Below are positions 10,748 through 54,467 of a stretch of DNA of 64,000 bases, one piece after another (positions within the stretch are counted from its first letter, which is position 1; the number at the start of each line of letters is the position of its first letter). Made by a program: the position numbers and the translations under genes. The stretch spans positions 558,001 to 622,000 of the forward strand of contig NZ_JAKRGF010000001.1 of the NCBI RefSeq assembly GCF_022347685.1, given 5' to 3'. The stretch comes from Thalassobius sp. Cn5-15. GTDB lineage: Bacteria > Pseudomonadota > Alphaproteobacteria > Rhodobacterales > Rhodobacteraceae. Under the pieces are notes generated by a model. That model searched no databases, had not been told where the DNA came from, and saw only the letters and a list, made by a program, of their open reading frames with translations.

Positions 10748-11581
10748 TTACTCAGCCTCCAGAATGGCTTTGTTCAGTTCCAGCGGCTCAAGCTCACCAT
10801 CATCGAAGGTGTCCAAACCCTGATTTTGCTGCACGTCAGCTGCGGCCGCCGCGTTGCTGGGGTCCAAGCCGTTGGCTTCCAGCAGCATGCGATCCAGCGA
10901 CGGGTCGGATGCCGGTTCGCTCAAGGGCGCCTGCAGGCCAGATGTCAGGGGGTTGCGGCTACCCGACACGTTGGCGGCGATTTCAGCGACACGGCTCTGG
11001 TTCTCAACCGTGGTCTGCAGCGCCTCGTTGTCGCGCGTCAGTGCGTCGATCTGCGACTGCATTTCGCGCAGCTTTTCAGCCATCTGCATTGCGTCGGCGT
11101 TGCCTTGGCTGATCTGCAGCCAGTCGATTGCCTTCTGGCGCAACTTGCCGCCGCCCATGCCCAAATCCATCAACTGACCATCAGACAGATTTGCCAGCTG
11201 TTCGACGGTCAGGATATTCATCAGCTTGAGGGTTTCGGCGGTCGCGCGGTCGATGCTGGGCCATTCGGTCAACGCCGTGCCATCAGGAACCTGTGCGTTC
11301 TGCGTCTTGAACGCGCGGTATTGCGGCGCATATGCTTTCTGATCTTCCGGCAACACCTTGCGGCGAATGCTTTGGTTGTTGCTGCCAGCGAACAATAGCA
11401 GAACCATTTCCACGTTCTTGTGGATGATGCGGCCCTGTCGGCGGCTGGCGTTGCCGTCAATTTCGGTGCCCATGTAAAACTGCGGGATCACGCCAACCGC
11501 TTGGGTCGGTACGCCTGCGTTGCTGCCCAAGAAGGCAGTGCCAGCTTCGGGTGCCTCAAAGTTTTGGCGAAGGGTGTTCAT
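10748..11581 (-). CDS. phage protein with helix-hairpin-helix-like segment and coiled coil
   Basis: 277 residues. The N-terminal 100 residues look globular (FYMGTEIDG, MVLLLFAGSNNQ, YRAFK). Residues about 115-150 contain LKLMNILTVEQLANLSDGQLMDLGMGGGKLRQKA, which resembles a helix-hairpin-helix motif. A coiled coil follows (MAEKLREMQSQIDALTRDNEALQTTVENQ), then an acidic tail. It begins just after a rho-independent terminator, so it may be expressed at lower level than the capsid genes upstream. Its place between decoration protein and adaptor suggests a head or connector role. No family name is claimed. Confidence 0.65.
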   Translation of the reverse strand: MNTLRQNFEAPEAGTAFLGSNAGVPTQAVGVIPQFYMGTEIDGNASRRQGRIIHKNVEMVLLLFAGSNNQSIRRKVLPEDQKAYAPQYRAFKTQNAQVPDGTALTEWPSIDRATAETLKLMNILTVEQLANLSDGQLMDLGMGGGKLRQKAIDWLQISQGNADAMQMAEKLREMQSQIDALTRDNEALQTTVENQSRVAEIAANVSGSRNPLTSGLQAPLSEPASDPSLDRMLLEANGLDPSNAAAAADVQQNQGLDTFDDGELEPLELNKAILEAE

Positions 11582-11595
11582 GTCATGCTCTCCAA

Positions 11596-11628
11596 TAAAA
11601 GCCCCACCGGCGCGAACCGGAGGGGCTG
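11596..11628 (-). terminator. rho-independent terminator after the capsid block
   Basis: On the minus strand a stem AGCCCC(T)CCGG / CCGG(T)GGGGCT with a TTCGCG loop is followed by TTTT. It lies in the 73-base gap between the decoration-like gene and the next phage gene, so it probably lowers transcription after the abundant capsid products. Confidence 0.7.
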
Positions 11629-25904: not shown

Positions 25905-25932
25905 ACGACTTTTGACACGACTTTTGACACGA
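25905..25932. repeat. 12-base tandem duplication near the integrase end
   Basis: The unit ACGACTTTTGAC is present twice in direct tandem, followed by ACGA, in the 142-base gap between the KaiB-like start and the serine recombinase stop. This gap is where an attachment core for the recombinase could lie; no core is proven. Confidence 0.6.
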
Positions 25933-26020: not shown

Positions 26021-27565
26021 CTAAACATCAAGTACGCATCCCTGTCTCTCCGCCATTATCTTTTTATTGATAGAAAACCCCTCTAACACCTTGAATGGTA
26101 AGGTGGTTTTTGGTGTTCGAAGTCCGTTTTCACGTGAGTATGAAATCCGATCTGCAAAGGCCAATCGTAGCACGTTCTTACGCCCTAGCAGATTTTCACT
26201 TTCCCAGAGTTTCCAAGGGTTTGAGAGGAATTGCATGGCGTGTTCGAACAATTGTTCAAAGGTATGCGCCTTTGCTGGCTGTTTTTCCAGTTTTTCGTCT
26301 AAAATCAACTTCGTGCGCTCCATCTTTTCGATGCGTTTTTCATAGGCTGTGATGATTGTAGGACTATCCGCCTCGACGATGCGGTCCATGAACGCTTCAA
26401 TCTGCTTCGTGAGTTGATCACGTTCATTGCGCAATATGCGCCTGTTCGCTTCGGCCTGTGCCGAGCGTTGAGACCATGCATCTTTGAACATGCCCTTAGC
26501 ATAGGCAAAGATGCCCTCAGAGGGGGCAAGACCCTGCATCAAAGTCGCAAACTCCCCTTCCAGAACATCGCGACGGATCGACTTGCGGTAGCTTGGACAG
26601 CCTTTGGCATGGCAGAGATAATAAGGATGTTTCTTTCCTGATTTGCTGGTGGACCAGCAGGCGGTCAAAGGCGTGCCGCAGTCGTCACAGCAGACAAAAC
26701 CACGCAAAGGGAAATCGGCATTGATATCCTTGCGTGCGGGCGCTCGTGCGCCTTCCTTGATGCGTTGCTGGATTGTCTCGTAGGTCTCAAGCGAAATCAG
26801 CCCTTCATGATGGCCTTTGCGCAAAGACACATCCCAATCGGGAATTTCAATATAGCCTGCAAAGTGAATGCGGGTCATGAGGCGGATCACCCGCTCAAAC
26901 CGAATGGTGCCATCGTCGAAGTCTTTAGGAAAGATCGGCTGGCTTTCCAGAAACCGTTTCACCTCGGCCTGTGTCTCAAATCTGCGGGAAGCAAAGCCTT
27001 CTAAAGCCTCCTGAATAATGGAGGCCATGGGTTCATCGCGCACCAGCATATTCCCGTGTCCAGAAACACGCTGGAATTTATATCCAATCGGGGCGCGGAA
27101 CACCCAGTACCCGTTGAGCGCACGTCCCCGCATACGGTTTTTCGTCTGCTCACCGTTTTTCTGGCGTTGATGTTGCGATACCGAGGCCAGCAGGTTCTCC
27201 ACCAAAATGCTGTCGCTGTCCTCGCCAAACTCAATTGACGGGCTTTCCAATTTGCCCCCTGCTTCCGCCAACATGGCACGAAGCTGCCAATGTCCAACAA
27301 CGTCCCGCGCGAAACGGTTGATGTCATCAATGATCACGACGCTGGTTTCAGATTGCTTAGACAGGAAGTCTAGCAAGGCCATCATGGCTGGGCGGTCTGC
27401 ATCGCCGCCCGATTTGTTATCTTGAAAGACTTCCACGACCTCATAGCCCTTGAAGCGGGCGTATTCCCGACATCGGCTTTCTTGCGAAGCGAGGCCGTCG
27501 CCCTTCTTCAATTGTGCCAGACTGGACACACGCGCATAGATGACTGCTCTTTGGTTTGCTTCCAT
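26021..27565 (-). CDS. large serine recombinase (integrase), intact
   Basis: 514 residues. Residues 1-150 are the catalytic resolvase domain with YARVSS (Ser at 14 or 15) and Arg/Asp patterns (SGGDADRPAMMALLDFL, DDINRFARD). The recombinase domain spans about 170-300. A zinc ribbon CxxC ... C-x-x-x-GC starts near residue 295 (CCDDCGT ... HAKGCPSY). A long coiled coil (about 380-440) precedes a C-terminal LSNPWKLWES ... RLAFADRISYSRE motif. It catalyses site-specific integration and excision of the element it belongs to. It is encoded one base overlapping the small upstream gene, with AAGGAG ahead of ATG 27565. Two decayed relatives lie at 42.3-42.6 and 53.5-54.4 kb. Confidence 0.88.
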   Translation of the reverse strand: MEANQRAVIYARVSSLAQLKKGDGLASQESRCREYARFKGYEVVEVFQDNKSGGDADRPAMMALLDFLSKQSETSVVIIDDINRFARDVVGHWQLRAMLAEAGGKLESPSIEFGEDSDSILVENLLASVSQHQRQKNGEQTKNRMRGRALNGYWVFRAPIGYKFQRVSGHGNMLVRDEPMASIIQEALEGFASRRFETQAEVKRFLESQPIFPKDFDDGTIRFERVIRLMTRIHFAGYIEIPDWDVSLRKGHHEGLISLETYETIQQRIKEGARAPARKDINADFPLRGFVCCDDCGTPLTACWSTSKSGKKHPYYLCHAKGCPSYRKSIRRDVLEGEFATLMQGLAPSEGIFAYAKGMFKDAWSQRSAQAEANRRILRNERDQLTKQIEAFMDRIVEADSPTIITAYEKRIEKMERTKLILDEKLEKQPAKAHTFEQLFEHAMQFLSNPWKLWESENLLGRKNVLRLAFADRISYSRENGLRTPKTTLPFKVLEGFSINKKIMAERQGCVLDV

Positions 27566-28099: not shown

Positions 28100-28825
28100 G
28101 TGAATATTAATTGGAAGACAGCCACTAAAGCCGACCGCGCTGCCCTTTACCTCGTGGCTCGCGCGATTGCAGACGCCGCCAACACGAGTGTGGAAGCCAT
28201 TATGGAGCAAGCCTTCGGACACGAATTGGTGGCCGGAACGGACTATCTATCTAATTTCCGAAGCGGAACAATTGGACGACCCAAGGCCAAGCTCATCCAT
28301 GCATGGATCGCCGAACATCATCTATCAGCAGCGAACGCGGTCGATCCCAATTTATTTCCTAAACCGCATACGAATGCATGGGATGAACATCTCAACCAAA
28401 ATGCGATAAGTGGTAGATTGAAGCTGGTGAGGTTTTCACAATCGTCGTTTGGGTTAGTGGAACGTGCCCGCGAGACTACCGCATCAGATGAGACGATTAA
28501 GTTAGGTGAACCGTTCTGTTTACAGCTTAGTTGCGTAGATGCTGGATATTCGGCTGCCTTCCAAATCTACGCTGGAAAGTGGCACAGCCTTCCGCTTGTC
28601 TCTGATGGCAGCCTGACGATCCAGCTTGAGGCCGGAGACCAACTTCTACCCATCGCTGCAGACGCTAAACCAGACCCGATTGTAGAGCGCCATGACGCTG
28701 GGCCACATAAGTTCGTGGTCTTGATCGCACCAGAGCGCGACGCTTTGCCAAAACGAGATGAGGTTCCGTCTGCGTCTGACAATTGTGAATGGCATCTTCT
28801 AAGTGTTCAGGTGGATGCTAAGTAA
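28100..28825 (+). CDS. unknown protein, N-terminal helical plus DUF4384-like C-terminal half
   Basis: 241 residues from a GTG start at 28100, with AAGGA seven bases upstream. The N-terminal 90 residues look helical (AALYLVARAIADAANTSVEAIMEQAFG) and may form a helix-turn-helix-like unit. The C-terminal half (residues about 135-240) has KLGEPFCLQLSCVDAGYSAAFQIYAGKWHSLPL, which resembles the beta domain of DUF4384 proteins (a 'GD-x-L-x-L-x-x-x-x-x-x-x-G-Y-x-x-x-x' strand set). The gene converges on the metalloprotease gene, overlapping it by 19 bases, and diverges from the recombinase operon. Function unknown. It may belong to the same island cassette as the protease and nuclease. Confidence 0.6.
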   Translation: MNINWKTATKADRAALYLVARAIADAANTSVEAIMEQAFGHELVAGTDYLSNFRSGTIGRPKAKLIHAWIAEHHLSAANAVDPNLFPKPHTNAWDEHLNQNAISGRLKLVRFSQSSFGLVERARETTASDETIKLGEPFCLQLSCVDAGYSAAFQIYAGKWHSLPLVSDGSLTIQLEAGDQLLPIAADAKPDPIVERHDAGPHKFVVLIAPERDALPKRDEVPSASDNCEWHLLSVQVDAK

Positions 28826-29709
28826 TTCGGCAAAAGCGGCAGCAAAAGTTCATTCACAGACTTAAGGCTCGCCCATTCCTGCGCCCCGGATGTTATCAGG
28901 GCATCCCATCGCCGCAACTTGGCGTTTGCAATGTCGGCAAAGAACGCTTCAGGCGACCCAAGGTCGGCGGTGATGGCTTCGGCTCCCGCTGCCTTGGCCA
29001 GAGAGACTGCATCAAAATATGCAGGCAAGATCACGTCTTTGCTGAACGCTTGTATCTGTTGTTCGGGAGGCAACGGCGCACCGTTCACTTGCGTTGGGAT
29101 CGCCCACATTTCGCCGACATGACCAAGCAGTTGAAAAATGCGCGTGGCCGCCTTTGGATGGGTGATGAGATCAGCTTCACGACCGGCGCCGGCTTGCTCT
29201 ATTAGAACAATGGCGGCTGTAATACTGGCGACGAGTTCGCGCAGTTCACTCGCATCCAACTCATCGAATGAACCCAGCATCATTTCCATTGCATCATGAT
29301 CGGCTTGCAGTTCAAGGCATGGTGCGATCTTTGGCCAATCATCTTGAGGCAGGGTGTTGAGGCATACGGGTTGCGCCTCAGCACGGGCTACGAGATTGAG
29401 GGTAGGCACGCCCCGCATCATCTCAAAATGCCCAAGATCAGCGTGATGCAATTCATGTAGGATCAGCCATTGCAGAGCGGTTTCTAGATTGAATGTGACT
29501 GATGTCTCAGCTTGCAATTCCTCCAGAGCGGTTAGGCAACCTGTCGAAACCTGCACAACCAAGTCAGGTGTCTGCGTCACCGAAGAAAAGAAACCAACGT
29601 GGCCCACGATGTTCAAAACTGGGTCTTGTGCCCAAGGTTGATCAAAACATTCCTGTATTCGAGCCATAGATCTTGTAAAGGCACGCTCAATCACTTGATT
29701 TATGATCAT
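28807..29709 (-). CDS. M48-like zinc metalloprotease
   Basis: 300 residues without signal peptide or membrane segment. Residues 85-89 are H-E-L-H-H, the HExxH zinc site, and E133 in LELQADHDAMEMM fits the third ligand of M48-type gluzincins (E-x-x-AD). ITHPKAATRI near residue 182 matches the conserved THP segment of that family. Unlike HtpX or Oma1-type M48 proteins it has no membrane helices, so it should act in the cytoplasm. Its ATG overlaps the stop of the 1,262-residue nuclease gene (ATGA), so the two products are probably made together. Its substrate is unknown. One possibility is activation or control of the nuclease partner. Confidence 0.75.
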   Translation of the reverse strand: MIINQVIERAFTRSMARIQECFDQPWAQDPVLNIVGHVGFFSSVTQTPDLVVQVSTGCLTALEELQAETSVTFNLETALQWLILHELHHADLGHFEMMRGVPTLNLVARAEAQPVCLNTLPQDDWPKIAPCLELQADHDAMEMMLGSFDELDASELRELVASITAAIVLIEQAGAGREADLITHPKAATRIFQLLGHVGEMWAIPTQVNGAPLPPEQQIQAFSKDVILPAYFDAVSLAKAAGAEAITADLGSPEAFFADIANAKLRRWDALITSGAQEWASLKSVNELLLPLLPNYLAST

Positions 29710-32700
29710 TGATGTTGACTGAAGAATTCCTCCACTGAGCCAACAAATGTGTCGTCCAGTGCCTTACTCTTTGAGAACTGCATGGGCACCACGCCGCTAC
29801 AGATCAAACAAGAAACGATCTCTGGATTTTCTTTGCCACAGAATTTCGCAATTTTTGTAGTATTTTCCTTGGCGAGATTAACGCGATCAAGGTGTTTTCT
29901 AAGTTTATCTTTCTTACCTTCGCCTTGATAATCAGAGAGTTGGGCTGCAATCTCGGAATAGTTTCGCGCAGCAGACAAATCCTTGCATTCCATAAGATAC
30001 ACTTTGTTTGCGGTATCATTCCAAGCCAGCACATCTACATCGCCATAGTTTTTGTCCAACTTTGTGTTCAAAATCTCTTCTAGCTTGATCTCTTTGCGAA
30101 CATGCCATCCTTGGTCAGCAACTTTCTGTGCCACTCCTTCATTGAAGGTATGACCTTCGCTTGCCACACCCCACCAGTCATTTCGCATTTTGGGAGTTTT
30201 GAAAAAGTCTTGATCCAAGGAGCCATTGAAAGCCCCATCAAATACATAAGCAAAGCCACGACGCAAAATAGTTGGCGCAATCACAGCCTTTTCAAATCCG
30301 TCTACATCCATTCCCAAGATTGGACGTGTAACAATTGACAGCCTTCGGCCATACTTCCAAGGATAGATATCCTTTAAGTGATAACCGTCCGGAGTGGTCT
30401 CCCAATTGTCACGAGACGGCAACAAGAAGGCTGACCAAAATGCCCTAGCTACGGCTTCCGATACTTGGCCTGAGACCACGTTCTCAACGAATTCACCTTC
30501 AGTTAGCTCCAAAACCAAGCTCCCCTCACTGAGACCAATGTCTTCTAAAGCGCCTATTATGTTTCTGGCTTCATCCAAGTTGAATCCGAATTCGTCTGTC
30601 CAAATTTTCCAAAAGTCAGCATCGATCTTGCTCTCAGTTTCAGGGACTATTTCGGCCTCATCGTAGTTTTTGGCTTGCTTCGCTGATGCCGCAACAAAGT
30701 TCTCGCCTACGACCCTTTCCAGCATGGGTTCGACCACAAAATTTCCAAAGTCGTCTTCAACTAGAACATCTCCTAGAGGTGAGATTTTCAGCTCTGGTTT
30801 CAGAGCGTTGAAGCGTATTGCGTCAGAAAGGCCTCCAAAGCGCACTATCAAAGCAATTTTTGCAATTAGGTGTTCTAGTTCGATGTCTGAGATTTGCTCA
30901 TCGCCATTCTTGGGGCAAACGCAAATCGCCATCTCAATGAGTATTCGACAGGCGACACTAGCACCGACACATTGCGAATTGTGCTCTACAAATTTTGCTA
31001 AAGTGCTGGGAGTATTTCCATTCAGACCAAGTATGGCCGCGGATGTGCGCCTCCATTGTGCGGAACTCTCCTCAGCCTTGAGCGTGTTGTAAAGCAATCG
31101 ATGAATGAGAGGCCGACGTTCAAATTTTTTTAAGGCACCTTTTACATCTTCAATCAGTTCGTCGACCAATGAGGCAAGGAATTTACAACACTCGCTTACG
31201 CCAGAGACATTCCCATCCTGCGAGACACCTTTACCACGCCAGCCAAGACCGATCTTGGTCGCTGCATCAGGAATTTTTTCGATAGTTATGACGTCTTTTG
31301 GAAGATCGTGTCGAAGAAAATCACCAAAATTTTGGGCCACGAACAGATGGAAGCAACGAGCATCCTCGTTGGGAACTATTTCATCTAAAAGCTCTCCCAA
31401 TCGGAGAGGTGAAGCTTGATCACTTGAGTATGAAAGAACCGCATCTAAAATCGTCCTGACAATGGTTGCTTCGGCCACGTTTTCAGATGACCTGAAACCG
31501 AGCAGAAATCCACTTCCAAATGTTATTTCGATCTTGTTGTTAGCCTTATCGGAGCTGACTTTTATTAGTGCTTCCAGATCGAGACGACCAGCCTTCAGAG
31601 CGGTGTCCTCTGGTGTTTCGGCATCCAAGAATGCCAACGTAATTTCAATATCGTTTTGGTTCTGCCCATCGCTATCCAACGCGGTTCCAATGCGTCCAAG
31701 CCACTCGTTGCACATCTCCCATAGCCGGTATTCTAGATCACGGTCCGTAGTGTTTGGGCAATGCACGCCTAACCAGATGTCGTGATGCCCACGATGCACA
31801 GACAAGAGTTTTGCCTGCCTTAAGGCTCGCAGTGAGACGTAAACTTTTTCCTTAGTTTCATTGGACCAGTACGAGTTGGCAAAAAATTTCTTTAGGCCAT
31901 GCAAGTTACCTTGAACGTCAATGGCAACGTGCTCATCGTACAACGTGTCACCTTCAGCCCTTACATCTCTAAGTAGGTTCGAGGGCATCATCAACTGAAG
32001 TGGCCTTCGAGGGCTGATGCGATCTCCATCCAAGGATGCATGTGGAACGAGATGCCCATTATTGGATCGAACCCAGCCAATTAGGTTTGCAATCCCGTTA
32101 ACATTCCATAGGTTTACACCTGCATCCAACAGTGTGCTTTCTGCTGACAAAAGCTGATATAGATACCGCAAGCTAATTTCTGGCAGCCCACTTAGTCTAA
32201 TGAGGTCCGATGCGGGAAAATGGGCAAGATGCCAACCGTCATGTCGGAAAGTTATGCTTTCGGTTGCCAAACCTGGCCCCCAGCCGCACCCAACGAGGAT
32301 GACCAACCCACCTTTTGTCCCTTCTTTGGATTTGAATGAGCTGACTGATTTATCAATATCCTCTTGCAGAACCTTTGCGATCTCACCGTCAGTATCTCTG
32401 ATTACATCTTTGAAGCGCTTTGAATGGTTTAGTTCTATTTTCGGCAGGAAGAGGTGGAACGTGGCGAAATGGCCCTCATCAAATTGCAGACCGAAAGTTG
32501 CGATTTTGACCTGTTCGTGATCTCGCCAAAGAATCGGCGCACCTACTGGGCCTCCCAGTAGAGATGTGCTGCTGATTGCATCAGAAAAGGATTTTGCCAA
32601 CCTAATACCAAGAGTTGGCAGCTGCTCCATTGCATGACAGAAATCTAGTATATAGCGTCGTATTGTTACCGATATGGCTGTTGGCATGGCTACAAGTAGA

Positions 32701-33494
32701 TTTTCCTCATCGAAAACCATTATCGGGTGCGAAATCAGTGAATTGTCATCGATCTCTTGCGTTCCGATATCCAACAGTTTCTCTGGTGGAATAATGAATG
32801 GTCCCAGATCATTCGGGGTAATACCTGCCGCATCCAATTGAGATATTGGTATAAGTGTTCGACTGCGCAGTTCACCTTCAGGAGGAAGAAATTTGCTTTC
32901 CAACGTTGCAAATTTCTGTTCGGAACCAAGTGTATATCTCTTAATTCCAGAGTTTTTGCACACCAGCTCGGACACAAAGAGTAGTGCGTGAACGGATTTT
33001 TTGACCTGAGAAAAGCTTCCCTCATCTGGCATAGTGTCCAGTATGTCAATCATGCGCTGAGTATTGAAACCAGAGGCTTCCCAAAGCCCTTCAAGCAGAC
33101 GAAAATTCCCTTTGGGGCTTGTGACTTGAGAAACAAATACGTCCTCAGCAGGGTCTTCACCTAAAACGCTTGGCGATTTACCGATCTCGCGAAACCATCG
33201 TGCTGCCTGTCCAATTCGCGGGCGTTTTCTCCCTGCACAGTGGATCGCAGCCAACAAGACCAGAGCCTCAAATCTCAGGTTGTGTGACTGGTACATGGGT
33301 ACTGTAATTAACCCGCTCAATAATGCCACAGTCATTGATCTGTCGTATTTGGCTAGGTCTCTTACTAGAGGTTTGCTTTTGTGACCAATGTCTTGGAGCG
33401 TTACATTTAGGTGCGCCCAATCCATTTGCTCTCCCAGCAATTTCTTAAACTCTTCAGGAACTTGGTCTAAAATATCCAAATTAATCTCTTTCAA
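29706..33494 (-). CDS. giant protein with C-terminal PD-(D/E)XK nuclease domain (1262 aa)
   Basis: 1,262 residues, no membrane segments. The first 1,000 residues show no family I recognise. They are mixed alpha/beta with helical repeat-like stretches and no clear Walker A, so there is no visible ATPase. The end (about residues 1120-1250) is a restriction-endonuclease-like domain: helix EGVAQKVADQGWHV, then strand GDVDVLAW with Asp at 1154, and VYLMECKDL with Glu 1169 and Lys 1171, followed by a helix. Such domains cut DNA or RNA. Base composition is visibly AT-richer than the prophage. It is translationally coupled to the metalloprotease. A large sensor-like body joined to a nuclease suggests a defence effector; this is inferred. 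Confidence 0.75.
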   Translation of the reverse strand: MKEINLDILDQVPEEFKKLLGEQMDWAHLNVTLQDIGHKSKPLVRDLAKYDRSMTVALLSGLITVPMYQSHNLRFEALVLLAAIHCAGRKRPRIGQAARWFREIGKSPSVLGEDPAEDVFVSQVTSPKGNFRLLEGLWEASGFNTQRMIDILDTMPDEGSFSQVKKSVHALLFVSELVCKNSGIKRYTLGSEQKFATLESKFLPPEGELRSRTLIPISQLDAAGITPNDLGPFIIPPEKLLDIGTQEIDDNSLISHPIMVFDEENLLVAMPTAISVTIRRYILDFCHAMEQLPTLGIRLAKSFSDAISSTSLLGGPVGAPILWRDHEQVKIATFGLQFDEGHFATFHLFLPKIELNHSKRFKDVIRDTDGEIAKVLQEDIDKSVSSFKSKEGTKGGLVILVGCGWGPGLATESITFRHDGWHLAHFPASDLIRLSGLPEISLRYLYQLLSAESTLLDAGVNLWNVNGIANLIGWVRSNNGHLVPHASLDGDRISPRRPLQLMMPSNLLRDVRAEGDTLYDEHVAIDVQGNLHGLKKFFANSYWSNETKEKVYVSLRALRQAKLLSVHRGHHDIWLGVHCPNTTDRDLEYRLWEMCNEWLGRIGTALDSDGQNQNDIEITLAFLDAETPEDTALKAGRLDLEALIKVSSDKANNKIEITFGSGFLLGFRSSENVAEATIVRTILDAVLSYSSDQASPLRLGELLDEIVPNEDARCFHLFVAQNFGDFLRHDLPKDVITIEKIPDAATKIGLGWRGKGVSQDGNVSGVSECCKFLASLVDELIEDVKGALKKFERRPLIHRLLYNTLKAEESSAQWRRTSAAILGLNGNTPSTLAKFVEHNSQCVGASVACRILIEMAICVCPKNGDEQISDIELEHLIAKIALIVRFGGLSDAIRFNALKPELKISPLGDVLVEDDFGNFVVEPMLERVVGENFVAASAKQAKNYDEAEIVPETESKIDADFWKIWTDEFGFNLDEARNIIGALEDIGLSEGSLVLELTEGEFVENVVSGQVSEAVARAFWSAFLLPSRDNWETTPDGYHLKDIYPWKYGRRLSIVTRPILGMDVDGFEKAVIAPTILRRGFAYVFDGAFNGSLDQDFFKTPKMRNDWWGVASEGHTFNEGVAQKVADQGWHVRKEIKLEEILNTKLDKNYGDVDVLAWNDTANKVYLMECKDLSAARNYSEIAAQLSDYQGEGKKDKLRKHLDRVNLAKENTTKIAKFCGKENPEIVSCLICSGVVPMQFSKSKALDDTFVGSVEEFFSQHQ

Positions 33495-37239: not shown

Positions 37240-37833
37240 ATGGAAGACGTTGATTTCGAGGGTGACACAAAAGGTCGCCGCATTGGTTATGTGCGAGTTT
37301 CGGACAAGGACCAGAGCCAAGATTTACAGGTAGATGCGTTGAAGCATGCGGGCTGTGACGTGATCTATGGCGATCTGGGTATGTCTGGTGCGGACGTTAC
37401 GCGGCGCTCGCTTGAGACCTTGCTACGCGATCTAACCAAGGGTGACACACTTGTCGTTTGGAAATTGGATCGCCTTAGTCGTTCAACGCTGCATTTGCTT
37501 GAATTACTCGATGATCTGCGAGTGAACGGCGTGGATTTTATTGCGCTCACACAGGGCATCGACACGACCACCGCCGTGGGGCGTATGGTCTTTGGTCACC
37601 TTGCTGTTTTTGCCGAGTTTGAACGTGAACAAATCCGCGAACGCACCAAAGCAGGAATGGCCGCCGCCAAAGCGCGGGGCGTGCATATCGGACGGCCGCG
37701 CGCGATTTCTGATGACATGGCGAGATTGATCAAACACCGCCTCGCTATCGGTGAGGCGTCTGTATCGCAGCTGGCCGAAGAGTTGGACATCTCGCAACAG
37801 ACAATTGTCAGAGCGATGAAAAACATCGAATAG
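37240..37833 (+). CDS. serine resolvase/invertase
   Basis: 197 residues. The resolvase domain starts RRIGYVRVSDKDQ with the nucleophile Ser at 21, followed by LQVDALKHAGC, DLGMSGADVTRRSLETLL and LVVWKLDRLSRSTLHLLELL. The dimer helix AVFAEFEREQIRERTKAGMAAAKARG is clear. The C-terminal 45 residues (GRPRAISDDMARLIKHRLAIGEASVSQLAEELDISQQTI) are a Hin-type helix-turn-helix. Members resolve cointegrates or invert segments and are common on mobilisable plasmids. It lies next to the mob genes on the opposite strand. The candidate sites at 37041-37179 are upstream. Length is normal for the family. Confidence 0.88.
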   Translation: MEDVDFEGDTKGRRIGYVRVSDKDQSQDLQVDALKHAGCDVIYGDLGMSGADVTRRSLETLLRDLTKGDTLVVWKLDRLSRSTLHLLELLDDLRVNGVDFIALTQGIDTTTAVGRMVFGHLAVFAEFEREQIRERTKAGMAAAKARGVHIGRPRAISDDMARLIKHRLAIGEASVSQLAEELDISQQTIVRAMKNIE

Positions 37834-37865: not shown

Positions 37866-38174
37866 TTATACTATACGATGCGGGTTGATATGCAGCGGCA
37901 CATCATCGCCCGCGCGATGGCGACGGGCCTCGTCTCTGACCAGCATTTTTTCTACATATCCTGAAAAGGTTATCATATATGGCTGATCAATGTGGCGGTT
38001 CACATCGCATTCCATCGTAAATTGGTCCATGTCTGCGCCAATCGATGCAAGCCAATCGAAATGCTTCCAATGAGATTGAGGAAGCCGAATAGGTTCATCA
38101 ATGCCAAAGGCATTCTTGACGTTTTTCGCTACCCACTCCCCATCTGGCAAAAAGTCTCTATTTAAAATATTCAC
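37866..38174 (-). CDS. small protein at the end of the mob operon (102 aa)
   Basis: 102 residues. It starts MNILNRDFLPDGEWVAKNVKNAFG and continues with QSHWKHFDWLASIGADMDQFTMECDVNRHIDQPYMITFSGYVEKML, an acidic, Trp-containing middle without membrane segments. The last 20 residues are basic. It lies in the same direction and 38 bases downstream of the 207-residue gene, so it probably belongs to the same transcript as traG and mobA. No family is recognised; similar small genes accompany mob loci. Confidence 0.5.
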   Translation of the reverse strand: MNILNRDFLPDGEWVAKNVKNAFGIDEPIRLPQSHWKHFDWLASIGADMDQFTMECDVNRHIDQPYMITFSGYVEKMLVRDEARRHRAGDDVPLHINPHRIV

Positions 38175-38212: not shown

Positions 38213-38836
38213 TTATCGCGACTTTCCCTTGTCCTTTTTGGCGTTAATATCATGTTGGCGTTCGATTTCTTGCTCCTCCTTTTGCCGCTGTTCTTCGAAA
38301 AATTCACCGTCGTATTCCTGAACCGCATCCATGACGGCTTGACGTTCTGGGGTCGCCTCAGGTTGCTTTTCCCAATCGCCGTCTTTGAAATGTGCAACCT
38401 CCAATTCGTGACCATATTCTCCCTGTGTCACCACAATTTTGTTTAGGTGCCCGCCTTCATAACCATCTTTAGTCGGATGCTCCGCTCGCCATGCCCTGAC
38501 ACGAAACCCATTAAATTCGCCTTCCAATGTATGATTGCCATTGCGCAATGCATGTTGCCATTCATCATCCGAAGGTTGTTTCTCCGTAGTGGCGGGTTGA
38601 GATGGTGTTTGCCACTGATCTTGGGAGCGGGGTGGCGGAAAGAAATTTCCCGTCCCTGAAGGAGTCAGGCTTGGATTTTTTACATTTGCAGGGTCGTGTT
38701 TTGGATCGGTGTTGCTGCGAAGGGGTTCGTCATCTTCTTCAAGGTCAATATCGGCTTCAAAAACAATCTCAACTTCAGGTTTTTGAGCCGCCACATTGAA
38801 CGGCTTTTGGGGACGCTTGTCGTTATCTTGGGCCAT
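38213..38836 (-). CDS. acidic mob-operon protein (207 aa)
   Basis: 207 residues. The N-terminal 95 residues are disordered and acidic/Pro-rich (FEADIDLEEDDEPL, then Pro/Gln/Thr). A folded middle begins near residue 95: HTLEGEFNGFRVRAWRAEHPTKDGYEGGHLNKIVVTQGEYG, a beta-rich small domain. The end is a highly charged coiled helix (EQRQKEEQEIERQHDINAKKDKGK). It is transcribed after the coupling-protein gene, 58 bases downstream. An accessory role in conjugation is possible. No family is recognised. Confidence 0.55.
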   Translation of the reverse strand: MAQDNDKRPQKPFNVAAQKPEVEIVFEADIDLEEDDEPLRSNTDPKHDPANVKNPSLTPSGTGNFFPPPRSQDQWQTPSQPATTEKQPSDDEWQHALRNGNHTLEGEFNGFRVRAWRAEHPTKDGYEGGHLNKIVVTQGEYGHELEVAHFKDGDWEKQPEATPERQAVMDAVQEYDGEFFEEQRQKEEQEIERQHDINAKKDKGKSR

Positions 38837-38894: not shown

Positions 38895-40572
38895 TTAATC
38901 GTGTAGGCTGCGGCCAAGTGCTTTGAGTTCGGTATCTTCAAACCATTTCACCTTGGTTGCACGCAGCGGGTGCATGTTTTCAAGGAAGGCAATTTGGTGG
39001 GTTTGCGGAAAACGCATTAGTTCATCTGGAAAGGCCAACTTCCGTTGAGCGGGCGTATATGTCGAAGATTCAGAGCTACTATTGCTACCTGCTCCAAAGG
39101 TATTCGAAACAGCGCTGCTAAACGACCACACTGTGGTTTCGCCGCACAGGCTTGAGAAATAGTCGGCTGTCATTTTGTCACTCGACCCAAAGTAGTTGAT
39201 CATACCTGAATTTGAGACAAAGCTCTGCCACCCTTTGTCGTAGATACGGTCTAACTGGTTGAAGTCCTGCACAATGCCCCAAAGCTGCATACCGTAACCC
39301 GCCATAAGGCCATAGGCTTGCTCAACCATTGTTAGACGCCCCAGTGCCGCAAACTCATCCAGCAAGAACAGAATTGAATTATCTGGTTTGGTTTCTAGGT
39401 TTCGTGCATTCACGGTGATAGCCTGTTGCACCAACAGACGCAGCCAACGACCAAATGTGTTCAATCGATCTGAGGGCAAGACGAGATAGATCGTCATCGG
39501 TTTGGTTTTCAGGTCTTCAAACTTGAAGCTTGAAACCTTCATGTTCTTCGCGATGCGATCACTATCCAAGAAGTGAGTATGCGCTTGTGCTGTCGCAATA
39601 ACACTCGCCTTTAGCTTTTCTTCCTTTTGCAAGCTTCTCGCCCCCGTGCTTTTGACAATCGGGTGCATTGATTTTTTCATCTTTGTGAAAGTCTTATCCA
39701 GCTCCGTTACATCTTGAACAAGCAATTCACGCACGCGTGGCAAATGGCGTCCGCCATCTTCTTCGGGGTCTGTCGCAACATGCATAATTAGACCTTGGAG
39801 TAAGGCCTTGGAGTAAGGCCTTGGCTTCCTCATCCCAAAACGGGTCTTTGCTATTGCCCTCAACGACCAATGCGGATGCCAACAACATCGCGTTTTCAGG
39901 TAGATCAGGATCGGTTGTATCCAACCAATCAAGTGGATTGAAGGACGACACTTGCAAATCATCCAGTGGGGTAATCGCCCACGGATCTACAATCTGAATT
40001 TCTTGCCCCATCTGCTGACGGCGTTCTGCCGTTGCAAAAGCGTTTTCTCCCTTTGGATCGATCACTAAGGCTGAACCTCCATAGGTCAAAAGATTTGGAA
40101 TGATCTGTGTGGTGCCTTTGCCAGCGCGAGTTGGGGCTACCGTTAGCAAATGACGATCACCTTTATAGGAGACCCAATCCATTTCACCCTCAGCATTTTT
40201 AAATTTCCCGATGCGAATACCGTCAGTTCCAAAGGCATCTTTACTCGCCACATCTTCATGTGTCGCCCAGCGGCTTGAGCCGAAAGTTGTCGGTTTGTCA
40301 AAGAATCCAGAGGCCAATCCACCAAGCCAATACGCAAGGCCAAAGACAAATGCGATAATCGCCAACAAAACAGCGGCATTCCAGCCAAGAAGATTGTTCA
40401 GGAATATGGTCGCAAACACGAGCACGCCAACAATGATGTAGAGGGCCATTTTGCGGAAAGAGGCTGATTTTGGGGAGAATAGCCATCCCAATAAAAAGCC
40501 AATTCCAAATGATGCGACCACCATGACAATACGCACAATTGTCATGCCGAAATAATAAATTAGTTCATCCAT
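38895..40572 (-). pseudogene. traG: VirD4/TraG coupling protein, broken by a 13-base tandem duplication
   Basis: Two overlapping frames together make one type IV coupling protein. The N-terminal frame (40572 down to about 39800) has three to four membrane helices, then FGSSRWA and the Walker A TRAGKGTTQ, followed by LVIDPKGENA. The C-terminal frame (about 39800 to 38895) has LLDEFAALGRLTMVEQA and a final HPLRATKVKWFED motif, both standard for the family. The frames change exactly at two tandem copies of GGCCTTACTCCAA (minus strand). Removing one copy gives a continuous reading ...KALLQGLIMHVA. The intact protein would link the relaxosome to the secretion channel. In the sequence as given the protein stops early. 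The defect could revert by loss of one copy. Confidence 0.85.
39793..39818. repeat. 13-base tandem duplication inside traG
   Basis: The plus-strand unit CCTTGGAGTAAGG is present at 39793-39805 and again at 39806-39818. 13 is not a multiple of three, so the second copy shifts the traG frame. Confidence 0.9.
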
Positions 40573-40594: not shown

Positions 40595-41860
40595 CTATCT
40601 TGAAAAACCTAGATCGCGCCCGCGTCGTTTAACTGTTTGGGGCGATGTCTTGGGGGGATTGAGAGATTGTCGTATTTTTGAAGCCAGCAATCGTCGCTCT
40701 TCGGCCTGACTGCGACGTAGCTTTATAAACTCGCGCTGCAATAGGCGACGCTCTTTCATCTGCTCAACGACCATAAAATCGCGCTGATCTTGATCTCGTT
40801 TTGCAAATTTCTGAGCTTCAAACTCATTTTGCCGACGAATGGAATTAGCTTTTCCCGTCAGGCGATCAAACAGGCCGCGCAAGCCTTTGTTCAGTCGATC
40901 AGAACGAACCTTGGTTTCCACCAGCCAACGCTGCTCTTGCCCGGTTTTGAGTTTCTGGCGCTCCGCGCGATGTGCCGTGTTCATATCCCGTAGTTTGTCG
41001 CGCAGCGGATCAAGGTCGCTTCTCTGACGATCTTTAATGTCATTGATATAGCCGCGCATTTGATCCGTAACTTTGGACCGAATGATTGATCGCGTTTCAT
41101 CAACCGAAGGAAGGCTATCTGGCGATCCAAGTTTAGCGTTCACATCTTTGGTTTTAAGCGCTGCCCATTTGGCAATCGAATAGACTTTGCCATCAGCATC
41201 CAAGGCAACGAAGCCACGCCGATCACCACGGGCGAGGAAATAGCCGCGCTCTTCGAGCGCATTCTTGAAACCAATCTGGCTATCACAACGTTTCCAAGCC
41301 TGCTGAAACGCTTGTTTAATTTCTCGCGGATCAAGCCCTTGGCGCTTGGCCTGCTGCCATTCATCCAGCGTGAAGTTCAGGGGCGATTTGTTCCCATAGG
41401 TCGCAAGACCATCAGGCAATTGCCACCCATGATCCAAGAACAGATCGCGCGATAAGTCCCGCAGCTTGTTTTTGAAGTGGGGCAGATTGATAGCGGTTAT
41501 GGTTTCCGCATCAATGCGCGACCACACCGCGTGCGCGTGGCGTCGGCCTTCTTTCTCATGCACGACAATCGCACGGGGTTGCCCCTCAAGACCAAGTGCT
41601 TTCTCGGCGCGATCAGCCGCTTCCAAGAACTCTTGCTCAGTGGCCACATGGTCTTGTGGCGGGTTCAAACTCAACGAAAACATATACTGCTTACAAAAGG
41701 TTGCTTTAGAAATGGCGTGGGCCTCAGACAAAGCCCCGTGCAAATGCTCAGATAAAAATCCACGCAACTCTAAGCAGTTTACATGATCGTTGTCACGATC
41801 ATTCATCAGGTGATCGGCCAGCGCTTTTGCACCCGCCCGTTGGGAGCCTTTGAGGATCAT
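40595..41860 (-). CDS. mobA: relaxase / mobilisation nuclease (MOBP-like)
   Basis: 421 residues. The N-terminal 150 residues are the relaxase: MILKGSQRAGAKALADHLMN, QYMFSLSLNPP, and the His-rich motif HEKEGRRHAHAVWSRID (H101, H108, H110) that binds the metal. Residues about 175-245 hold a typical DUF-like accessory segment (FTLDEWQQAKRQGLDPREIKQAFQQAW ... GRGDRRGFVALD). A long Arg/Lys/Gln-rich coiled coil follows to the end. It nicks the transfer origin and pilots the strand. It overlaps mobC by four bases and is followed by the broken coupling-protein gene. It looks intact. Confidence 0.85.
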   Translation of the reverse strand: MILKGSQRAGAKALADHLMNDRDNDHVNCLELRGFLSEHLHGALSEAHAISKATFCKQYMFSLSLNPPQDHVATEQEFLEAADRAEKALGLEGQPRAIVVHEKEGRRHAHAVWSRIDAETITAINLPHFKNKLRDLSRDLFLDHGWQLPDGLATYGNKSPLNFTLDEWQQAKRQGLDPREIKQAFQQAWKRCDSQIGFKNALEERGYFLARGDRRGFVALDADGKVYSIAKWAALKTKDVNAKLGSPDSLPSVDETRSIIRSKVTDQMRGYINDIKDRQRSDLDPLRDKLRDMNTAHRAERQKLKTGQEQRWLVETKVRSDRLNKGLRGLFDRLTGKANSIRRQNEFEAQKFAKRDQDQRDFMVVEQMKERRLLQREFIKLRRSQAEERRLLASKIRQSLNPPKTSPQTVKRRGRDLGFSR

Positions 41861-42213
41861 TGCTTCACCCCCAAAGCTTCCATGATGGTTGCTCTAATCC
41901 ATGCCACCTCAGCAACGGCACGTTTGAGGTCTTCCTCCAATTCAGGATCGACAATCAACGTGCCTTGGTTCAGATGCTTGGCGATCTGATTGAGATTGTT
42001 CGCCTGTCGTGTTTGGCCCAATCGTGCCAATACCTCAGCTAAGAGCTGTTGCTCCGCAACAGGTGGTTTCCGCCGCTTCCGATATTTGGGAGCTTCAGCG
42101 GCAAAAACCACGGACTTGATATAAGCCGACAGCGACATACCCCCAGCCTGAGATTCAAGCTGTGATCGTTCCGCAGAGGTTAGGCGCAATGAAAAGGGTG
42201 AGAGGCGGCTCAT
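41857..42213 (-). CDS. mobC: MobC-like relaxosome accessory protein
   Basis: 118 residues. The start LSPFSLRLTSAERSQLESQAGGMSLSAYIK is a ribbon-helix-helix-like DNA-binding region, and the second half LARLGQTRQANNLNQIAKHLNQGTLIVDPELEEDLKRA is the usual MobC pattern. It would help the relaxase open the transfer origin. Its stop overlaps the mobA start by four bases (ATGA). This gene is first in the mob operon, so a promoter and oriT are expected upstream, in the 42.2-42.3 kb gap. Confidence 0.8.
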   Translation of the reverse strand: MSRLSPFSLRLTSAERSQLESQAGGMSLSAYIKSVVFAAEAPKYRKRRKPPVAEQQLLAEVLARLGQTRQANNLNQIAKHLNQGTLIVDPELEEDLKRAVAEVAWIRATIMEALGVKQ

Positions 42214-42249: not shown

Positions 42250-42640
42250 AGAACCTTGTTCCAGTTCTCCAATTCGTCGAACAAAGTGTTCGAACAAACT
42301 GGCTCACTGTCCGCCATTCTCTTCTTTTCGCAAGAAAACCCCTCTAAAACCCTGATTATAAATGTGTTTTTGGGTTTCGAGCTCCTGTTTCTCAGGAGTA
42401 GGAAATTCGCACAGCAAACGCCAGCTTAAGGACGGTGCGGCGCAACGTTAGATGACCCGAATCCCATAGTTTTCAAGGATTTGCGAAGAAGGTGCAGGCG
42501 AGTTCGCACACTTCGTCAAACCTGGTCTGAGCTGGTAAGCTAGCGGCTTGTTTTTCCTGCAATGCGATCTTATCGCGTTCAAACTGACCAAGGCGCTTTT
42601 CATAGGCTTTGATCACGGCTGAGCTGTCGGCATCTTTGCT
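42250..42640 (-). pseudogene. C-terminal remnant of a large serine recombinase (left remnant)
   Basis: Only the last about 115 residues of a recombinase related to the intact one at 26.0-27.6 kb remain. AVIKAYEKRLGQFERDKIALQEK is the coiled-coil end, and CELACTFFANP followed by a stop (TAG/TGA-type) and KLWDSGHL...RISYS matches LSNPWKLWES...RISYS of the intact enzyme. Internal stops break the reading. The upstream side abuts the IS3-family remnant at about 42640, so the catalytic N-terminus was lost at that junction. Confidence 0.75.
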
Positions 42641-43490
42641 CCTGCTGATCGGGTTGCATGTCATCTTTCCCTAACCAGTAAACCACAGTGGGCGGTTTGC
42701 CGCCATGGGCGCTGTGAGGGCGTTTGTGGTTGTAGAACTCGACCCACTTGGCGCTTCCGGCTCGGGCATCCGATCCGGTTTTCCATGCATGCAGGTAGAC
42801 ACATTCGTATTTCAGGGACCGCCCTATGCCATCCATGGAGATGCGTCTGCCGGATCGGCGTAATCGATCTGCCCATGCGAACAACGTATATTGCGGTCCT
42901 TGATCCGTGTTCATAATCTCGGGTTCGCCGTATTTGGCCATCGCCTCGTTCAACACATCGACGCAGAAGTCGGCTTCCCGCGTGTTTGATATCCGCCATG
43001 CCAATACTTTACGCGTATACCAGTCAATGATCACAAGCAGATAAAGGAGCCCGCGCCGCATGGGGATGTAGGTGATGTCCGACGCCCAAACCTGGACGCC
43101 CAAACCTGATTGGGCAGCGTTACGCGCAAACCCTTTAGCAGATACGGGTAAGTCATGTGTCCTTTTACAGGTTTGTTCGTATTGAGATTTTGATAAATTG
43201 GCATGAGGCCGGTCAACCGCATGAGCCAACGGATGCGCTTCTCGTTCACCTGCGGGGGGCCTTCTTTCCACCACGATCAAGGACACCGGATGCCCTTCCA
43301 GCAGCGCCCGCTTCAAACTGTGGATCATCGTGGGGTGAACGCCAAACCGGCTCGACAGCTCGACGACCGTGCGTTCACCCTTCAATGCCTCAAGCGCGAC
43401 TTTGGCCTTAAAATCAGGGCTGCGGTTCTTCCGCTTCTTCATTTTGGATCGTCACTTTCGTCATGCGACCCACCTTATACACTGGTCCGA
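42640..43490 (-). mobile_element. IS3-family remnant with deleted and frame-shifted transposase
   Basis: The reading starts at 43442 with an OrfA head (KKRKNRSPDFKAKVALEALKGERTVVELSSRFGVHPTMIHSL). OrfB pieces occur in two frames: NEKRIRWLMRLTGLMPIYQN ... TLPNQVWAS (frame of 43031-43249) and ASDITYIPMRRG ... LVIIDWYTRKVLAWRISNT ... IMNTDQGPQYT ... KYECVYLHAW (frame of 42600-43442). The frames join where a 14-base unit is doubled (43081-43108); with one copy the text reads NQVWASDITYIPM. The third catalytic residue region (normally ...IFIERLW) is missing between MDGIGR and SLKYE. The element is therefore dead. Ends are approximate. Confidence 0.75.
43081..43108. repeat. 14-base tandem duplication inside the IS3 orfB remnant
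   Basis: GACGCCCAAACCTG occurs at 43081-43094 and again at 43095-43108. It shifts the orfB frame, just as the 13-base duplication does in traG. Confidence 0.9.
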
Positions 43491-52232: not shown

Positions 52233-53476
52233 GGAGTTGGAGTTCCCCCGGTTTTGTGGACGGTTATGGGCTTAGAGATTTCAGCCCTTCAGCGGTGATC
52301 CTTTCGTCGTTGACGGGTGACTTGTAACCCAAAGCCGAATGCCTGCGCGAGGGGGTGTACCAGGCTTCAATGAACTCGAAGCAGGCGATGCGGGCCTCAG
52401 CTTTGGTCTTGAACTTCCGTCGAGCCAGCAATTCACATTCGGGCGTGGCGAAGAAGCTCTCGCACATGACGTTGTCATAACAATCACCAACCGATCCCAT
52501 CGACAGGCGTACCCCCATTTCTTTGCAGCGCAGGCCAAAAGCCATCGGTGTGTACTGCGATCCCTGGTCGCTATGAGGAATGACGCTGTCGGGTTTGCCT
52601 TGTGTTACCGCCATGTTCATTGCGTCGATGACAAGCTGCGCCTTCTGGTCATTCCCCATAGCCAGCCAGTGATCCGCCGACTGAAGGCATTCAGGACGAC
52701 AGCTAGATACAGAAAGCCCGCCCAAGTTGGCGCATACGTTATGTCTGCGACCCACAGCACGTTTGGCGCATCCGCATAGAAGTTCCGGTCCACCAGATCG
52801 CTTGCGGGCCGGGCCCATAGATCGCGCTCTGTCGTGACCACGAACTTGCGGCGACTGACAGACCGCAAGCCTTTAGCTTTCATCAATCTCTCAATGCGCT
52901 TGCGCCCCACATGGTCGCCTTCGTCAGCGAGTTCAGCGTGAATGCGTGGCGCAGCCTCATGGATGGCGGCAATCCGGTCGCTTAACGCGTCATCGGCAAC
53001 CTGTCGGACACTGGGCGTGCGGTTGTGATAGGCATAGAAACCGCTGCGGGATACGCCCAAGGTATGCGACATCAACTGGATCGAATACTCGGCCTGATTT
53101 GCGGTCATGAACTTGAAGACCTCCGCGATGTCACGTCGCTTTGTGCAAACCAAGCCGCGGCCTTTGATAAGATGTCCCGCTCTTGGCGAAGCTGCCTGAC
53201 TTCTTTGCGAAGTTGACGCAGCTCCGCCAATTCCGTGCTGGTCAGGCGATCATCGCGTTCACCATCGTCGGCACCAGCCTGCTTGACCCAGTCATGGATC
53301 GTTGCGGCGCATGGCTCATACTCCCGCGCAATGCTTTCAACACTGCGACCAGCTCGCACCAGCGCACCCAATTGCTCCCTGAATTCCGTCAGCTACGGGG
53401 TCCTCGTTCTCGGCGTGAAAAACACTCTCCTTCATCAGTGAAAAAGTGTCCATCAAACCGGGGGAGCTCCAACTCC
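52233..53476 (-). mobile_element. IS3-family insertion sequence (about 1.24 kb) with terminal inverted repeats
   Basis: Left end GGAGTTGGAGTTCCCCCGG (from 52233) and the reverse complement of the right end (to 53476), GGAGTTGGAGCTCCCCCGG, match over 29 bases with four differences. Between them are minus-strand orfA and orfB. The right end is joined directly to the middle of a serine recombinase gene. No clear target duplication is seen, which suggests deletion beside the element. Confidence 0.8.
52264..53371 (-). pseudogene. IS3-family orfA/orfB transposase, frame-shifted in orfB
   Basis: OrfA (53371-53105) has a helix-turn-helix (VESIAREYEPCAATIHDWVKQ) and a leucine-zipper-like LTSTELAELRQLRKEVRQLRQERDILSKAAAWF. 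OrfB starts in the frame of 53153 (IQLMSHTLGVSRSGFYAY ... LWVADITYAPTWAGFLYLAVVLNAFSRRITGW) and continues in the frame of 52818 (MGNDQKAQLVIDAMN ... IPHSDQGSQYT ... NVMCESFFATPECELLARR ... YTPSRRHSALGYKSP). The break is at about 52665: one missing base between TGG and CTATGGGG would restore it. All three catalytic residues are otherwise present, so the defect is a single-base loss. Confidence 0.8.
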
Positions 53477-54373
53477 AGGCTGAGGTGCTGCGCTTTTTGA
53501 GTGCCAAGCCAGATTTTCCACGTGGCAACAACGGTGAGGTCCGCCCGAAGCGCGTGGCGGATATGTTGGTGAACCCGCTTTATGCAAGCTGCATTTGCAG
53601 TGAGGTTTATGAGTTGAACTGGCTGCGTGGGCACCACCAGCCGCTGATCTCATTGGAAACCTATGACAAGGTTCAAACCCGCCTGCATGGCACGGCCTAT
53701 GCGCCAGCACGCAAGAATATCAGCGATGATTTCACTTTGCGCGGTTTTGTGACCTGCGGGGATTGTGGAAAGAAATTGCGCTCGTCGTGGGCAAAAGGGA
53801 AGTACAAGCACTACGCTTATTACCTTTGCCAGACCAAGGGCTGTGACAGCTACGGCAAATCCATTCCCCGGGCACGCGTTGAGGATGCCTTTGGGGATGT
53901 CGTTAGAACGCTGCAGACCACACCCGGTTTGTTGCAAATGGCTGAAACCATGTTCCGTGATGCGTGGGCGGCGCGGTTGGATCAGGTGAAGGACGTCACA
54001 AAATCGGTCCGCCGTCAGATCAGAGGGGGATAAGCAAATCGAATCCCTTTTGGATCGGATCATGAATGCGACCAATGACGCGGTGATTTCAGCTTATGAA
54101 CAGAAGATCGGCCTGCTCGAAAAAGACAAAACCCGCCTGCACGATACGCTGATTCATCAGGCCCCTGCGCCCAAGCGATATGACGAGGCGCCAGAACTCT
54201 CCCTGAGGTTCCTGTCAAGCCCTTGGAAACTCTGGAAAAGCGGCCAGATTTTATTGCACAGAACGCTGCTCAGACTGGCGTTTACAGAAGGATTTTCTGA
54301 CCATCGCACTGAGGGGGCTAGAACACCAAAAAACCTTATTATTCAAGACTTTAGGGGTGGCTTGAGGTGTTGA
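53477..54373 (+). pseudogene. C-terminal remnant of a large serine recombinase (right remnant)
   Basis: Starting at the IS right end the text reads QAEVLRFLSAKPDFPRG, matching TQAEVKRFLESQPIFPKD of the intact enzyme at 26-27.6 kb. NPLYASCICSEVYELNWLRGHHQPLISLETYDKVQTRL and the zinc ribbon FVTCGDCGKKLRSSWAKG ... CQTKGCDSYGKS follow. A frame change at a GGGGG run (about 54024-54030) ends the first part. The second frame (from about 54032) continues DRIMNATNDAVISAYEQKIGLLEKDK ... RFLSSPWKLWKSG ... RLAFTEGFSDH. The catalytic N-terminal 200 residues are missing. The remnant ends about 10 bases before tRNA-Leu. Confidence 0.8.
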
Positions 54374-54382
54374 ATATAAAAG

Positions 54383-54467
54383 TGGTGCGGGTGAAGGGAC
54401 TTGAACCCCCACGCCTTGCGGCGCCAGAACCTAAATCTGGTGCGTCTACCAATTCCGCCACACCCGC
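54383..54467 (-). tRNA. tRNA-Leu (anticodon TAG), CCA encoded
   Basis: The minus strand folds as a long-variable-arm tRNA. The acceptor arm GCGGGTG/CACCCGC is followed by discriminator A and an encoded CCA. The anticodon stem CCAGA/TCTGG encloses the loop TTTAGGT, with anticodon TAG reading CTA. A variable-arm hairpin GCGCC-GCAA-GGCGT and TTCAAGTCC are present. The serine recombinase remnant ends about 10 bases from the CCA end. tRNA genes are common landing sites, but large serine recombinases do not usually require them. Confidence 0.95.

Follow-up and report, generated by a model that had tools for sequence, protein, structure and literature searches.

A 13-base tandem duplication breaks the coupling-protein gene of a candidate mobilizable island in Thalassobius sp. 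Cn5-15

Coupling proteins of the VirD4/TraG kind (T4CPs; Pfam family PF02534) are expected to be encoded in one continuous reading frame. In phase-variable genes with simple sequence repeats, the repeat lies within the coding frame, a feature shared by the gene described here, and the tract is expected to be conserved in relatives; unlike such genes, the present tract holds only two copies and was found in none of the 45 relatives examined. Microhomology-mediated tandem duplications of fungi (ssp1 and others), as covered in a review (PMC13207564), resemble our case in that a short direct repeat lies at the offset of a unit that was duplicated once and broke the frame, but ours is bacterial and a single instance. 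No direct bacterial case of a short reversible tandem duplication was found in the literature searched, although one may well have been published.

The surrounding island resembles integrative and mobilizable elements (IMEs), with which it shares a relaxase, a MobC-like protein, serine recombinases and the lack of any detected VirB4- or TraC-type ATPase, whereas it differs from them in having its own VirD4-type gene beside a relaxase of family PF03432, a model assigned to MOBP1 in PMC11104534. A 2017 review (PMC5704250) lists a VirD4 of their own for two putative IMEs and for a few mobilizable plasmids, and gives their relaxase as MobC.

Here, we describe a duplication within a window of 64,000 nucleotides, the whole stretch of Thalassobius sp. 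Cn5-15 DNA that was analysed (Table 1), and read it as very probably an ordinary recent loss-of-function mutation, namely a slippage duplication that hit a dispensable gene while the mobilizable island around it was decaying. A broken T4CP alone matters little, as it would merely add to the recent pseudogenes of mobile islands, and a short, tidy tandem copy seen in a single genome says little for a switch as long as such copies have not been counted across that genome as background.

Table 1 Features of the window and T4CP genes broken or truncated in relatives (positions of the window, or of the locus named).
Feature	Sequence	Position	Strand	Remarks
Two exact 13-base tandem copies	Window	39793-39805 and 39806-39818 (39793..39818)	not assigned	
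Whole repeat tract	Window	39793..39824		2.46 copies; six-base repeat CCTTGG recurs at lag 13
N piece of coupling protein	Window	39727..40572	-	First 256 or so residues follow the family's frame; last 25 or so are out of frame
C piece of coupling protein	Window	38895..39962	-	Homology to relatives in frame only from codon 51; first 50 codons out of frame
MobA-like relaxase (PF03432)	Window	40595..41860	-	Full length against relatives
MobC-like accessory protein	Window	41857..42213	-	Full length
Conserved module protein, 207 aa	Window	38213..38836	-	
Conserved module protein, 102 aa	Window	37866..38174	-	
Small serine resolvase of module	Window	37240..37833	+	
Large serine recombinase, C-terminal remnant	Window	42303..42649	-	Two stops; directly upstream of mobC
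IS3-like transposase ORF	Window	42600..43442	-	Probably broken; overlaps recombinase remnant
Open large serine recombinase	Window	26021..27565	-	Low-coordinate end of G+C-poor stretch
Upx-like anti-phage protein	Window	29706..33494	-	Island cargo
T4CP, broken	L020			In-frame stop
T4CP, broken	L023 (uncultured Pelagimonas)	11480-11600		Frame change near run of T, towards N-terminal end
T4CP, broken	L031 (Pseudaestuariivita rosea)	11276-11452		Frame opens about 30 codons later than any other; likely N-terminal part in another frame
T4CP, truncated	L025, L057, L068			

Repeat tract and reading frame of the coupling-protein gene

On the plus strand, the tract consists of CCTTGGAGTAAGG twice followed by CCTTGG, six extra bases in register, giving 19 consecutive matching positions at lag 13, and it occurs once in the whole genome. 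The microhomology pair CCTTGG is present at the offset of the duplicated unit. The duplication is not a chance match, because a perfect tandem duplication of at least 12 bases occurred in 0 of 20 Markov-random 64 kb windows with the window's nearest-neighbour composition, and it is confirmed as real unless the assembly is wrong. An assembly or sequencing error concealing an intact gene has in its favour that the locus is read from one assembly, but we judge it very unlikely because a tract of 32 bases falls short of the usual length of a sequencing read, and similar duplications also occur elsewhere on the contig.

The tract sits inside a T4CP gene of the VirD4/TraG kind on the minus strand, the frame of which is shifted by the insertion and breaks at this point, since 13 is not a multiple of three and two frames meet there. 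The first-pass annotation had proposed that a 13-base tandem duplication breaks a TraG/VirD4 gene, and the two exact copies and the meeting frames bear this out. Like other members of PF02534, both pieces score above the family's cut-off of 20.1 (94.3 and 190.4 bits), the N piece at positions 12-158 and the C piece at positions 151-453, and together they span positions 12-453 of 468; unlike them, the window gene lacks one continuous frame, which the duplication has broken. In a search of solved structures, the N piece and the C piece each matched one chain, Cag5. Neither piece contains a further stop or frame change, and the genome search found no PF02534 gene besides the broken one.

The pieces could in principle form a split but working T4CP, with the C piece translated from an internal ATG past the tract and pairing with the N piece. 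An in-frame ATG does lie just beyond the tract, with an AAGG-like site seven bases upstream of it, and neither piece has stops and both keep coding-like pN/pS. However, a recent break would equally leave the coding signal preserved, a frame change at this site occurs in 0 of 45 relatives, and within what is a single ATPase fold the cut falls between the P-loop motif, which we assign to the N piece, and the acidic DE motif; we therefore regard a split functional protein as extremely improbable.

The mobilization module and its island

The module comprises mobC, mobA and the T4CP gene together with two small conserved ORFs and a small resolvase; its parts recur together in relatives, though not every part is present in each. 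The first-pass annotation held the rest of this module to be intact, which is borne out for the full-length mobC and mobA genes but not for the recombinase beside mobC, a stop-bearing remnant overlapped by an IS3-like element. Recombinase loss upstream of mobC is also found elsewhere, since the large serine recombinase in this place is open in locus L052 and broken or partial in L053, L057 and L061. The remnant and the IS3-like overlap also speak against the earlier suggestion that the module was silenced by one event, as does the genome's lack of any match to a VirB4-type (PF03135) or TraC-type (PF11130) ATPase, the two families by which the presence of a T4SS was checked. Because neither ATPase type was detected in the genome, transfer of the island would need a helper.

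As in IMEs, a relaxase is thus present without a T4SS of its own, as judged by PF03135 and PF11130. An open large serine recombinase is also present, while neither an empty site nor paired ends were found; queries of 19.9 kb and 7 kb, run against the genus to look for an unoccupied integration site, returned scattered IS and recombinase pieces and no clean empty site. Within the genome, PF03432 has one match over its cut-off and another under it on a different contig. Encoded in the G+C-poor stretch, which spans roughly 25-45 kb, are the Upx-like anti-phage protein (1349 bits in PADLOC; 1506 bits in NCBIfam, below its cut-off of 1900) and a weakly Lit-like protein. The best reading of this stretch is a decaying mobilizable island that carries a T4CP gene together with a Upx-type defence gene.

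The weakly Lit-like protein lies beside Upx, within 28807-33494, as further island cargo. Another large serine recombinase fragment, in pieces, is located at 53467-54340 and adjoins a tRNA-Leu gene (54383-54467), and an Rfam search over 25-55 kb found tRNA only.

Across loci L016-L096, a PF03432-type relaxase with a downstream VirD4-type T4CP recurs in many alphaproteobacterial genomes, and this module with its own T4CP may be of use for classifying mobilizable elements. In 32 genomes chosen from those behind the 81 loci compared below, PF03135 was present in 17 and absent in 15 (completeness not given). Some of these 32 genomes are without a nearby coupling protein.

Relatives of the gene and the age of the break

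A relaxase profile built from five MobA-like relaxases yielded 359 candidate stretches, from which the best 80 loci of the 359 (named genomes) were kept, and the addition of one viral contig relative from a relaxase scan of viral contigs brought the set to 81 loci. T4CP states were sorted by eye, and a re-check of the 45 listed as open moved L031 from intact to broken. The state was uncallable in 31 of the 81 loci: 23 had no homologous same-strand T4CP within 4.5 kb of the relaxase or the contig ended, five had only a distant T4CP (about 30% identity) and three could not be assigned, L030 and L056 because the contig stops within the gene region and L084 because of Ns. Among the 23, L070 has a T4CP homologue about 7 kb away and six have a distant T4CP on the opposite strand. 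A homologous T4CP in one open frame, on the same strand and no more than 4.5 kb downstream of the relaxase, was present in 44 of the 81 loci. In the remainder of the 50 callable relatives (6/50), the T4CP was broken or truncated, in no case by the 13-base duplication.

At the duplication site, 45 genes were compared, namely the 44 open ones and that of L031, and 44 of these 45 are open over their full length. Each of the 45 carries one copy and stays in one frame across the site, so the two-copy state in the window is derived and unique in the sample; the comparison with related strains suggested by the first-pass annotation thus turned up no relative that shares the duplication (0/45). A lag-13 match of six bases or more occurs at the site in three of the 45 relatives, whereas 1800 segments drawn at random from these genes gave 19, with the relatives not independent of one another, and the conserved AKALLQG residues encoded there may make such a match slightly likelier. 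That this stretch, written with GCCAAGGCC...CAAGG codons, provides a built-in lag-13 microhomology serving as a recurrent, reversible off-switch for mobilisation appears exceedingly unlikely.

The DNA of the gene matched one of nine genus genomes, the window's own, and none of the eight others, and a search with the C piece of 295 genomes of Rhodobacteraceae (cut-off 1e-60) matched five, the window's own included. A search of plasmid DNA returned 28 records, all at 60-80% identity and none covering 80% of the query, and a plasmid protein search with the C piece returned at least 5000 records, with all of the matches listed below 60% identity.

The pN/pS values of the window against 12 relatives were compared with those of 66 pairs among the relatives. 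They were similar for the N piece (0.377 versus 0.366 among relatives), the C piece (0.258 versus 0.250) and the relaxase (0.226 versus 0.233). Because synonymous sites approach saturation (mean pS of about 0.75-0.81 for the N and C pieces), this test of recency is weak and excludes only a large excess of protein change. Trees were built from the window and 44 relatives, these being the 46 with enough cover minus L023, dropped for its frame change, and L084, dropped for Ns within the gene, while L031 was retained both here and among the 12 pN/pS relatives despite its frame change near the N-terminal end. In end-branch ratios to the relaxase (mobA), the window ranked 6/45 for the C piece, which is somewhat fast, and 15/45 for the N piece, and its end-branch N/C ratio ranked 38/45. 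The faster C piece could reflect some relaxed selection or normal variation, and is a mild result against recency. As the pieces show neither other damage nor a clear excess of protein change, the gene was probably broken recently, in keeping with the earlier annotation.

Short tandem duplications as genomic background

In a 400 kb sample of the contig that holds the window, eight perfect tandem duplications had units of 12-25 bases, and three of the eight fell within a single 20-kb stretch. The 64 kb window has three, versus about 1.3 expected (Poisson estimate with clumping ignored, P about 0.14). In the 400 kb sample, the three duplications with a unit that is not a multiple of three are at ORF edges or between ORFs, none mid-gene, while both such duplications in the window sit in mobile-element genes (the T4CP and the IS3-like transposase). 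The positions in the sample are those to be expected if frame-breaking copies persist only where they are tolerated, and ordinary mutation with weak selection explains this distribution.

These counts also bear on a reversible switch, in which the 13-base copy would be gained and lost by slippage and mobilisation turned off and on, as the first-pass annotation had envisaged. Loss of a copy is mechanically plausible given the 19 matched positions at lag 13, and reversible microhomology-mediated tandem duplications are described for ssp1 in fungi in the review cited above (PMC13207564). However, this class of duplication is background in the genome, the duplication is absent from all 45 relatives and only 3/45 have a lag-13 match of at least six bases, and no VirB4- or TraC-type ATPase that would make switching useful was detected in the genome. 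Two copies also make a poor hypermutable tract, and switchable mobilisation is accordingly a highly improbable reading.

An ordinary loss-of-function mutation remains the preferred explanation. In an ancestral CCTTGG-AGTAAGG-CCTTGG arrangement, the six-base direct repeat, offset by 13 bases, would have allowed slippage of the strands, or a comparable event at the microhomology, to copy 13 bases once more, and the extra bases would have put the island's coupling-protein gene out of frame. An island that depends on a helper for its transfer, and that is apparently decaying, would have tolerated loss of the T4CP, and the pieces are presumably non-functional and under weak selection. Judging from the tract itself, reversion by loss of one copy would be possible.

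Elsewhere in the window, a perfect tandem repeat with a 12-base unit lies at 25905-25932, just past where the open large serine recombinase gene ends; it was considered as an attachment site and rejected, having no second place in the window. A perfect 14-base duplication at 43081-43108 lies in the IS3-like transposase ORF, 3.3 kb from the 13-base one, and is probably frame-breaking.
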